Assembly (NCBI GenBank): GCA_964035015.1
Contig: OZ036008.1
Coordinates: 822,501 to 886,500 of the forward strand
Direction: 5' to 3'
DNA from: Corallium rubrum
Taxonomy: Eukaryota > Cnidaria > Anthozoa > Scleralcyonacea > Coralliidae
DNA length: 64,000 nucleotides
Below, piece after piece: positions 20,956 to 34,006 of the stretch (position 1 is its first letter; each line of letters opens with the position of its first letter). A program made the translations under genes and the position numbers. The notes beneath the pieces are model-generated. The model had not been told where the DNA came from. It was given only the letters and a program-made list of their open reading frames with translations, and made no database searches.

Positions 20956-21325
20956 TACGAAAGCCGGGTAGGGACTTCAGACTTCAGACTTCAGACTTCG
21001 GACTTCAGACTTCAGACTTCACACCAAACTTATATAGTTTAGCTTAGTTTTTGTTCTTGTTATTGTTGTTATATGCTCTGGTTAGACTTAAAAGTGAAAT
21101 TTACGCCCTCTTATCTATTCCATCAATCATATTTAATGATTGTAAAGTTAATAAAAAAGACTTCAGACTTCGGACTTCAGACTTCAGACTTCAGACTCCG
21201 AACTTCGGACTTCGGACTTCGGACTTCGGACTTCGGACTTCGGACTTCAGACTTCGGACTTCGGACTTCGGACTTCGGACTTCAGACTTCGGACTTCAGA
21301 CTTCAGACGTCAGACTTCCGATTAT
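20956..21325. repeat. Left terminal inverted repeat with GACTTC(A/G) arrays
   Basis: The outer array (20,975-21,020), the unique middle (about 21,021-21,155, including TTGTTCTTGTTATTGTTGTT) and the inner array (about 21,156-21,320) are mirrored by the right end. The 7-base units vary mainly at one position (A/G). Repeated subterminal heptamers are plausible transposase binding sites. Confidence 0.93.
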
Positions 21326-21407
21326 ATACACAGCTTCCTTGCTTGGGCCTTACCTTTCAGGCTTATGTGAAAACATTTCGTTGTGTATATATTTGTGGCA
21401 GATAACT

Positions 21408-23502
21408 ATGGTAAGTTGAAATTGAAGTAATATTATTAGCTTGATCTTGGCTAAATTTTAGTGTTTTAAATGTGTGCTGAAAAAGCGATATGATAAGTAG
21501 GTCATGTCTCATTTTATAGGTTCCGTCGTGGATTTTTATTTCGATCTTAGCAGGGAAAATTTTGAGTTTAGATGCTCAAGTTCTCCCACCATACACCTTT
21601 TCTAATTTACAAGGATTTGAGCAAGAAGAGGTTGAAAGGGATCGTTTAATTCGCAGCTATTTCCACCAGGGCTTGTCGTATAACGAAATTGTATTCACGT
21701 TGCTCAGGATTCATGGGATTTCGCTGTGTCTAAGACAACTAAAAGGAATATTAGTCCGCCTTGGACTAAAAAGGAAGTTTCAACATAATAGCTCGCCACT
21801 TGAATTAATAGTTGACGCTATTTTGAAAAAGATTGCAAATAGTGGCCAGTGTATAGGATATCGTTCAATGTGGCGACGATTGGTGTACAGCTATCGGTTG
21901 AAAGTTAAAAGAGATACGGTACTAGATTTATTGAGAATAATAGATCCAAACGGTATCGAAAGACGGAAACGCCACAGACTGATAAGGAGAAGGTACAGCG
22001 CTCCGGGTCCGAATTTCACTTGGCACGTCGATGGGTACGATAAATTAAAACCTTTTGGCTTCGCTATTCACGGGGCAATTGATGGTTATAGCAGACGCAT
22101 TCTTTGGGTAGAGGTATGTTACACTTTTTTTCTATGTCAATGCCAATAGAAAGGTTTTAGTGTTAGTACAGAAAGGGAAATTGAAGAAGTTGAAACTTTT
22201 TCATGTGAAGTCATCAAAAAACTAAGACTAAGTATATAATGTTTTGAATGCATGAAATGAAAAAAAGCGAATGCCAATAAAGTATAGTTTTATGTTGTCT
22301 TTATACTATATACTATATACTTTAACCACGTTGTTTTGTGAAGTTCATTGGGAAATTTATCTGGAACTTGGCAAAGCGACGAGTCTAATTTGTAATCTAT
22401 GAAAACATAAGTGATATTAAACCTTAATTTTACGAGGATCCATGTGATTACTTAAAAATATAGAGGGTAAAATTATTCAAGAGCTATAATGTGTCGGGGG
22501 AGTGCGGCCTGTGCCTATACTGGATCTTCTTCTTTAAACAAAGGCAAAAACGTTCGTACGTTTTACACTAGTGTATTCATTTTCATTCAAATAGTTTAGT
22601 CTTTGGATAGTTTAAATGAGTTAAAAATTAACAAATTAAGAAAGCATTTGCAGGCCGGGATCATAGAATGGATACTCACTGACTATTTTGTTGAAATCTC
22701 AACTATTGTTTATTCTGTGTCAAGATGGCGAAAAGTCTTGCAAATTGTTGAGAAAATGTTTTGCATACTGTTGAAAGAAAAAATGCCATTCTCATTAGCC
22801 AATTATATCCGAGTAATTTCCCCCCTCCTTACTTCCTTCTGTTGTTGCTGGCTACTACGTAAGCTGTGTTCAGCATCTCGGTATTGTCCCAACGATATTG
22901 CGTTGTGATTTAGGAACAGAAAATACGAATATGGAGTTTTTGCAACCATTCTTTCGTCGCCAGTGCAATGACGACCTGGCAGGACTCAAAAGCTTTATGT
23001 ATGGGAAAAGTACAAGCAACCAGCGAATAGAAGTATGGTGGAGCATACTACGAAGACAATGTACGGACTGGTGGATATGTATATTTAAAGACCTCAGGGA
23101 CAGAGGTGTGTATGATAGCCTTGATCCCCTACAAAACAGTGCATTAAATTCTGTTTCATGGACATACTGCAAAGGGAATTGCATCGGATAGCTACGGAGT
23201 GGAATTTACATTCCATAAGAAGTAAGAGAAACAATGAGTGCCCGCCCGGAAAACCTGATGCATTATATTTTACCCCTGGATTATCGGATTCCCGTGACTA
23301 CGGAACCCAGGTGGCAGTTGAAGATGTTGCTATCTGCAAAGAGCTGTACACTAAAGAAAAACCCAACGATTATGACCAAGATTTTCTGGAGTTAATACAG
23401 TTACTTCGACCAAACCTGGTCATGCCCACTTCTGCAGATGATGCTCTGGCTCTTTACGTTGGTCTTATTCATGACATTGATGAATATACAAACATAGAGT
23501 AA
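21408..23502 (+). pseudogene. D-D-E (rve-like) transposase, IS3EU-like candidate
   Basis: A probable start ATG at 21,408 sits directly before a GTAAGT donor; the next exon (21,520-22,113) starts after TTTTATAG in phase 0. It holds a helix-turn-helix-like region (DRLIRSYFHQGLSYNEIV ... QLKGILVRLGLKRK) and the first catalytic Asp block (TWHVDGYDKLKPFGFAIHGA), and ends at a GTATGT donor. From about 22,835 the frame continues with VAGYYVSCVQHLGIVPTILR, the second Asp block (CDLGTENTNMEF) and the Glu block (SNQRIEVWWSILRRQ). After a frameshift near 23,160 it has the C-terminal part (LHRIATEWNLHSIR, PPGKPDALYFTPGLSDSRDY) to the stop at 23,502. A segment between the exons is missing. It catalyses DNA strand transfer in related elements; this copy is damaged. 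Confidence 0.82.
22114..22830 (+). other. Putative transposase intron
   Basis: The sequence lies between the GTATGT donor at 22,114 and the resumption of transposase coding near 22,835. No clear acceptor precedes the second coding block, so part of an exon may have been lost here. Confidence 0.4.
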
Positions 23503-24540
23503 CTTCAACAATCTAAATATATATTACAAACAAAACAGCACTTGGCCAACAAAATTTGAAAATGGTACAACGTTGAGACGTGTTCTCCCGCGTGTCCGAG
23601 CAACGTGCGGACTGATTGCTTCCTGCACTGATTAAACTATTATGTTCTGAACAAAAAGAGTTCTCTTTAAGTTGTGCTTCTAACATATTAACAAGGACAA
23701 TCACCGTGCATGGCGAGCACGCGTGCAGCACTATACAATCCATGCATGCAAGTTTACACATTACGCTATATAGACCTTATTCATAAACATTAAATGGCGA
23801 TCAACCGATTTATATTTTTCATGTGTATGTTAATTATCCCCTCTAGCCTCGTTATCATATGAAGAGTTCAAAAGACTTTTACTCTAAAACGAAGCTATAG
23901 GTGTATATTTTATATGCATGTAAAAGAATAATAAATTAGCTGCCATTCCAGAATAAGATTTATTATTCGATTTATTTTCCTCTTCCTTTTAATTGGCTGA
24001 GAGATCACTACGTCATCTGCAAATAATCATCTGCTCGTGCGCACAAGTGAGCAACGTTGTTTTGCTTGAAATAACAACTGCATGCTGACCATGCGCGTTT
24101 CTCCCCACTTTAGCAAACTTGCAAACGGAATCGCTCTTTCAGCCAGGTAAACAATGTCAAAAAATATAAATCGAATAATAAAACAATTATTGAACTCGGT
24201 TTTCACAAAGTATCGTGATTTGTCAGTGTCTCGTAGTTCAGTTATTTGTCTCTACCTTCGGCATCGGTGAATATTGAACTGCTCGCCACTGACAAATCAC
24301 GATATTTTGCTCAACCTGAAAAAATTAAAAAAAATAATTTGTTAATTAACCAGACGGGTCTTTGGAGGCAGCTTTGTTAAAGTCTGGCGCACGTCCGAAA
24401 ATGCAACATTTTTCCAAGAAGTCAACAAAAATCGGTCCTATTAAACGTTATAAGTGTAAACCAAGCTACAGTTGTTATTGTTCTCTAATATGTGAGACAT
24501 GTTTGTACTGTCTAGCTTTTCAGTTAAATGTACATATGGA
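23503..24540. other. Spacer with nested hairpin
   Basis: Two inverted pairs are visible: GATTTATTATTCGATTTAT (about 23,958) with ATAAATCGAATAATAAAAC (about 24,166), and AGTATCGTGATTTGTCAGTG (about 24,210) with CACTGACAAATCACGATATT (about 24,287). These look like MITE arms. No gene was seen. Confidence 0.55.
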
Positions 24541-32846: not shown

Positions 32847-32849
32847 AAC

Positions 32850-33595
32850 TTTATTTGCCCTCGAATTTACAGAGTAGCTAGTTACTACCGGGCATTCAAT
32901 TATTACCGTCTGAGCCAACACTTAATCTCTTTCTCGAACTTTTTGAAAAATATCTATACACAGGAGGCTCTGAGCGAGCCAATTGTCTTATTAGTTATGC
33001 ACCAGTTGGCGGAAACAATATTGTAAACAAAATAATTACTAATTAAATATCGTTATACCGAAACTTTGAAGTTGCCCTCCGATCTGGCGGTTTGGCCGAC
33101 GTACTGTACTATTTGCCTACTATTCCCTGGAACAAACGAAATTAGTAATGGCCCATTTACCGCGCTGTCACTTCAATAGTTCGATATCACAAATCTTTAA
33201 TATGCGACTGCTTGTATCCGTTCCTTATTATATGGGCTTCATAAATAAAACATGCAGTGACCCAAATCAAGGCAACAATTTCCACGTCATTATTACGAAC
33301 CTTATGCTCCTCAAATTTTTTCATTACATTTTGCATCCCAAGGCCATTTTCTTTAAGAAATTCTACAAACTTAATCAAAGGCAAAGCAGATTACTTTATT
33401 TCAGGCATGCACCCTCAATCCTCAAGACACTAACTTAACTTTTTATCAAATTCACCAGATATCACAAGCAATTCTTAAATATTACTAATATATTGCGGTT
33501 CTTCATTATAAATATCATTAAAAAGGTTGACTTACCTCCTCCTCCATGTCGATCAAAGTGGTCTGATTTAATACCATTAAAAAGCGATTTAAACA
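32850..33595. other. Non-coding stretch before the right TIR
   Basis: No exon or repeat family could be supported. Confidence 0.45.
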
Positions 33596-33599
33596 GGGG

Positions 33600-34006
33600 A
33601 AGTCGGAAGTAGAAAGTCGGAAGTCCGAAGCCCGAAGTCCGAAGTCTGAAGTCTGAAGTCCGAAGTCTGAAGTCTGAAGTCTGAAGTCTGAAGTCTGAAG
33701 TCTGAAGTCCGAAGTCCGAAGTCCGAAGTCCGAAGTCTGAAGTCCGAAGACTGAAGTCTGAAGTCTGAAGTCCGAAGTCCGAAGTCCGAAGTCCGAAGTC
33801 TGAAGTCTGAAGTCTGAAGTCCGAATTCTGAAGTCTTTCTTATTAACTTTACAGTCATTAAATGTGATTGATGGAATAGACAAGAGAGCGTAAATTTCAC
33901 TTTTAAGTCTAACCAGAGCATATAACAACAATAACAAGAACAAAAACTAAGCTAAACTAAGTTTAGTGTGAAGTCTGAAGTCTGAAGTCCCTACCCGGCT
34001 TTCGTA
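33600..34006. repeat. Right terminal inverted repeat with GAAGTC(T/C) arrays
   Basis: It mirrors the left TIR: an inner heptamer array (33,600-33,835), the shared unique segment (about 33,836-33,967, including AACAACAATAACAAGAACAA) and a short outer array before the terminus CCCTACCCGGCTTTCGTA. The inner array is longer here than at the left, so heptamer number varies between ends. Confidence 0.93.

Follow-up and report, generated by a model that had tools for sequence, protein, structure and literature searches.

The 64,000-nucleotide window of the red coral Corallium rubrum analyzed here (contig OZ036008.1 of assembly GCA_964035015.1, positions 822,501 to 886,500 of the forward strand; coordinates below are those of the window) contains a DNA transposon copy spanning 13,051 bp, from position 20956 to 34006. 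Its ends are exact inverted copies of the 18-bp sequence TACGAAAGCCGGGTAGGG, found at 20956-20973 on the plus strand and at 33989-34006 on the minus strand; searching the 64-kb window for this sequence with up to 3 mismatches gave 2 matches, versus 0.01 expected. The termini are of the TA..TA type (TACGA...TCGTA), and both ends are bordered by a perfect 6-bp target-site duplication (TSD), AGTAAG (20950-20955 and 34007-34012). The terminal inverted repeats (TIRs), located at 20956-21319 (plus strand) and 33599-34006 (minus strand), are built alike: from the outer end inward, a 17-bp tip is followed by a short heptamer array, a spacer, and a long heptamer array. The GACTTC(A/G) heptamers number 7 + 23 on the left and 3 plus at least 31, uninterrupted, on the right, and Tandem Repeats Finder (TRF) counted 22.9 and 34.0 copies, respectively, in the inner arrays. 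The spacers (139 bp left, 135 bp right) are identical at 129/135 aligned positions, with one 4-bp gap, and inverted arms of 287 nt (21035-21321 and 33673-33959) are complementary at 94%. Only 1 of the 186 inverted 14-mer pairs of the window has identical 6-bp outer flanks, and that pair corresponds to the transposon ends; the pairs compared were outward-maximal, 0.2-25 kb apart, and collected after low-complexity words had been removed. Identical 6-bp flanks are expected by chance at 3.3e-4 per pair. A random inverted repeat was rejected on the basis of this comparison of the 186 pairs.

The element is inserted into what reads as a copia retrotransposon on the minus strand. Its left flank (19326-20949) encodes protease, integrase, and SH3 domains, with Pfam matches to Pol_BBD (2e-11), rve (4e-11), and SH3_retrovirus (2e-18). 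The right flank (34013-34913) reads as a copia-type Gag with two zinc-knuckle motifs, for which all Pfam matches were sub-threshold (zinc knuckles at 0.002, 18.5 bits for a cut-off of 20.8, and at 0.004, 17.2 bits for a cut-off of 27; gag at 0.12). When the flanks are joined without the interval and one AGTAAG, the zinc knuckles stand just upstream of the protease motif, although the reading frame changes. No pair of long terminal repeats was seen in 18000-36500, where the direct repeats listed were simple arrays only. Because of this and of the sub-threshold Gag matches, the two flanks are assigned to a single copia element from their order, strand, and spacing. Beside the truncated copia element, the minus-strand open reading frame (ORF) 18417-18914 matched PF15518 (L protein N-terminus) weakly and below threshold (E 7e-4) and is perhaps part of another retroelement.

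The plus-strand gene encodes a transposase. A start candidate, an ATG at 21408-21410 directly followed by the motif of a splice donor (GTAAGT), lies 89 bp from the left array and would form the first exon, with an AG acceptor before position 21520. The next exon (21520-22113) carries the N-terminal part, the first catalytic D (HVDGYDK), and the start of the match to PF24764 (rva_4), a family that we take to correspond to IS3EU; this match extends into the last exon (22835-23502), which holds the DLGTEN and RIEVWW blocks. The first codons and the acceptor of the last exon have apparently been lost and the frame changes near 23140, so the transposase of this copy should be inactive. A protein search retrieved 1029 relatives, and the 120 listed include named molluscs and a hemichordate; P0091 is 72-74% identical to the window transposase. 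The second-D and E blocks could both be located in 68 of these 120 relatives, with a spacing of 39 residues in 60 of the 68, while the motif patterns missed the remaining 52. An IS3-type HTH_21 domain was found upstream in five of six transposase homologs, below the HTH_21 cut-off in four of the five, and no model of an HHCC domain was matched at E <=0.01 in the six. Plasmids searched with the transposase region gave no match. An earlier note, made from the letters of this stretch, had proposed a cut-and-paste DNA transposon bounded by inverted ends and a perfect AGTAAG, with TIRs made mainly of GACTTC(A/G) arrays that differ in number between the ends. According to that note, the element encodes a D-D-E transposase with the three blocks named above and splits one copia element, whose Gag and protease-integrase halves meet, up to a frameshift, once the interval and one AGTAAG are removed. 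These proposals are supported by the results described so far.

A second gene lies on the minus strand, convergent with the transposase gene, a layout reminiscent of RAG1-RAG2-like transposons. Its product would combine a Ser/Thr kinase with a predicted ubiquitin-like domain and with an Ig-like domain for which support is weak. A candidate first exon, ATGGAGGAGGAG followed by GTAAGT (33547 to 33536), lies just inside the right TIR, 52 bp from the right array, and a phase-matched CAAG acceptor precedes position 28813. The 5' part of the gene (27410-28813) encodes the predicted ubiquitin-like domain, a linker, the Ig-like segment, and the glycine-rich loop of the kinase, and the 3' part (24550-25247) encodes the kinase C-lobe. 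If these motif-based starts are real, the TIRs would drive both genes, and the kinase gene would have a first intron of 4.7 kb (28814-33535). This predicted intron contains a GGACAG array (28985-29514, roughly 460 bp plus variant flanks) and, on visual inspection, an inverted pair of ends, GGACCGCGCA / TGCGCGGTCC, separated by about 0.8 kb (30977-31778), which may mark a small nested element. A 35-nt inverted repeat (24206-24309, 86% complementary) lies between the 3' ends of the two genes and is possibly a shared transcription end.

The kinase gene is decayed. Besides an in-frame stop (25179-25181) and frame changes near 28400, 28030, and 24730, it is split by a plus-strand piece of 2,160 bp (25249-27408), with TT on both sides; homology to the database relatives P0001 and P0004 breaks from 27410 to 25247, and to P0002 from 27413 to 25247. 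Two ORFs in different frames (25414-26436 and 26373-26894) encode DUF3504 (6.6e-23) and a tyrosine-recombinase C-terminus (PF00589, 25.2 bits, below the cut-off of 27.1), in which the R, HxxR, H, and Y residues were identified by eye. The piece resembles Crypton elements in this combination of DUF3504 with a tyrosine recombinase motif and differs from them in being decayed, with at least one frame change, and in its TT borders. No inverted repeat of at least 14 nt linking its two ends was listed, and the piece was seen in a single copy. Near its right end, two 45-nt arms 12 nt apart (27283-27384) are 93% complementary. P0004, a relative with 95-99% identity, is continuous across the insertion point, which indicates that the Crypton-like piece entered the kinase gene later. 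The order of nesting is thus copia, then the transposon, then the Crypton-like piece, and the window copy of the transposon is dead. The size of 13 kb claimed in the earlier note is that of the interval; it is inflated by this later insertion of 2.16 kb and by the predicted 4.7-kb intron, which includes a simple repeat of roughly 0.5 kb.

With the window reading of the kinase gene (430 residues) as a query, four proteins were the only matches among 4006 candidates: P0001 (56% identity), P0002 (51%), and P0003 (48%), over 91-95% of its length, and P0004, 99% identical over 38% of the 430 residues. The order of the parts is the same in the relatives at 48-56% identity. A search with the N-terminal domain of P0002 (63 candidates) returned P0002, P0003, P0125 (55%), which stands for a cluster of 88 sequences, and the sea-anemone protein P0126 from Actinostola (35%); P0001, which partly bears this domain, was not returned. 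The kinase domain was matched by PF00069/PF07714 in the window gene and in the five kinase relatives scanned, with E values for PF00069 of 1e-49 to 3e-54 in the five relatives. For the Ig-like segment, Ig_2 was sub-threshold in the window gene, P0001, and P0004, and no Ig_2 match was found in P0002, P0003, or P0125. With the window/P0004 pair set aside (93-100% at positions present in both), pairwise identity was 65-80% in the kinase domain, 58-80% in the N-domain, 49-71% in the Ig-like segment, and 23-63% in the linkers, a distribution that would fit a protein under constraint. Four of the five relatives are single-protein entries of 660-753 aa, which suggests that these have no introns beyond the start. 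Foldseek with the N-domain gave no match at E <=0.001, and we read its superantigen-like rows as reflecting a common beta-grasp fold only. A full-length structure model of P0002 was not used (mean predicted local distance difference test score, pLDDT, of 35).

P0126 is a relative of the N-domain that carries UBX-like and HECT-like parts in place of a kinase. Both matches are weak: the HECT-like part had a PDB match with E 0.001 over 48 residues, the UBX match was sub-threshold, and no Pfam HECT match was found in P0126. PMC4255032, considered as a lead for an integrase-plus-HECT arrangement, was set aside, as it covers coelacanth insertions and endogenous retroviruses and its main text does not contain the word "HECT". 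Viral contigs searched for P0001 and P0006 gave 3 and 4 pattern stretches, respectively, none of which was confirmed. For the kinase relative P0001 and the transposase relative P0091, the longest contigs measure 4448 and 4454 bp, respectively; being nearly equal in length, they could represent one locus, but this is only a lead.

We consider it probable that the interval is one inactive copy of a two-gene IS3EU-type element in which the transposase and kinase genes converge inward from the TIRs, the kinase being an inherited accessory. The earlier note had seen in the minus-strand gene a kinase gene relic carried along as cargo. A decayed kinase gene is indeed present, and the gene layout and the conserved relatives suggest that it belongs to the element as a second gene of its own rather than being debris picked up in passing. 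The kinase could also be a gene of the host or of another element that was picked up by, or landed in, this single copy, thus a passenger foreign to the IS3EU family. The analysis covered just one copy with both genes, and eukaryotic kinases are very numerous (P0002 alone matches 1607 distinct PDB sequences at E <=1e-10), both of which would suit such a passenger. This explanation nevertheless seems unlikely to us, since the putative start of the gene is found immediately inside the right TIR and the remainder of the element is taken up by the kinase gene in a convergent layout. The occurrence of four of the five relatives as single proteins of 660-753 aa, and of one as a cluster of 88, also suits a mobile gene better, without being proof of one.

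The TA...TA termini, the 6-bp duplication, and the rva_4 transposase make IS3EU the most likely superfamily. IS3EU elements have TA..TA termini and usually 6-bp TSDs (PMC10045372), and the window element shares these together with a DDD/E transposase of the IS3/IS481 kind without a match to an HHCC model. It is distinguished by a second gene whose product has a Ser/Thr kinase besides ubiquitin-like and Ig-like parts, and possibly also by its TIRs of 364-408 bp, which are largely GACTTC(A/G) arrays. Membership in a neighboring superfamily, such as GingerRoot or a new IS481/IS3-like lineage, is rather improbable. In favor of it, the published tree does not separate GingerRoot from IS3EU, the two share 6-bp TSDs and, for the most part, TA..TA ends, and animals are presumed to have relatives of GingerRoot as well (PMC10045372). 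However, complete IS3EU families are described as TA..TA with 6-bp TSDs, and GingerRoot was characterized from a clubmoss and treated as one group with IS3EU, so that the distinction may be one of name only (PMC10045372). Finally, long simple arrays, which are error-prone in assembly, abound in the window (73 TRF rows), but a chance or assembly composite that misjoined the ends of two elements across repeats is very unlikely given a perfect TSD unique among the 186 inverted pairs, copia order and strand carrying on across the insertion site, and the nearly identical TIR spacers.

In a two-gene IS3EU-type element of this kind, both genes would be read inward from the two long, nearly identical TIRs, the transposase from the left and the kinase protein from the right. 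The transposase would bind the TIRs, with the heptamers serving as repeated binding sites or being merely a minisatellite, and would move the element by cut-and-paste, cutting at TA...TA and carrying out strand transfer with a 6-bp stagger. The kinase may favor mobilization by acting on the transposase itself or on factors of the host for the cell cycle, repair, or silencing. The duplicated AGTAAG records the insertion of the element into the copia retrotransposon, and the uninterrupted P0004 shows the subsequent entry of the Crypton-like recombinase element into the kinase gene.

Other arrays and ORFs were noted in the window. An octamer array, TCTCTCCC, with 218 copies at 97%, occupies the window start (1-1742). 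A second, (AGTCCGCA)n, with about 22 copies (36111-36282), is similar in style to the arrays of the TIRs and may mark where another element ends; it lies within the minus-strand ORF 36010-36909, which is reverse transcriptase-like by eye and had no Pfam match at E <=0.1. Within the element, ORFs 33070-33438 and 22600-22908 had no Pfam match.

The apparent pairing of a transposase with a kinase has a precedent in rust-fungus transposons that use a different type of kinase; here it is a Ser/Thr kinase. All TET-bearing IS3EU families of rust fungi have transposase and alpha-kinase genes in opposite orientation (PMC12730594). These elements resemble the window element in their 6-bp TSD and in the kinase gene opposite to the transposase gene, and differ in that they encode an alpha-kinase, with a TET/JBP gene in between (PMC12730594), whereas the window gene encodes a PF00069/PF07714 kinase. 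No TET/JBP dioxygenase was matched in the 12 ORFs of the element that were scanned, and no alpha-kinase was found in the window gene and the five relatives scanned. Because the kinase families differ, common descent of the window and rust kinase genes is not supported. Styx of Zymoseptoria, an IS3EU-like element, is likewise a multigene element with an IS3EU-type transposase and 6-bp TSDs, and is unlike the window element in its length of 7927 bp and its four coding sequences, none of which is named as a kinase in the passages considered (PMC10853768). The parental copy of Styx was kept in one traced transposition, which its authors attribute to non-replicative movement plus repair (PMC10853768). 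The statement of the earlier note that eukaryotic cut-and-paste elements of this size with cargo are uncommon must thus be qualified, as IS3EU elements with extra genes have already been described in fungi (PMC12730594, PMC10853768). A kinase-bearing animal IS3EU was not found among the matches listed in the openly licensed PMC literature, which does not cover Repbase Reports.

We also entertain, as a tentative and rather doubtful generalization, that animal IS3EU elements carry a regular second gene for a signaling protein composed of a shared ubiquitin-like front and an exchangeable effector, either a Ser/Thr kinase, as here, or, as in the sea-anemone protein P0126, UBX-like plus HECT-like parts. 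If this were true, then together with the alpha-kinase of the rust elements it would make phosphorylation control of the host or of the transposase a recurrent, perhaps ancestral, tactic of IS3EU elements. To our knowledge, the idea that cut-and-paste transposons have protein kinases among their standard parts seems to have been little explored, the rust-fungus case being the only one among the papers listed. Should the pairing hold, it would provide a case in which to test whether a transposon uses phosphorylation to signal to its host or to regulate its own transposase, and some of the kinases left unassigned in cnidarian annotations could be transposon genes.

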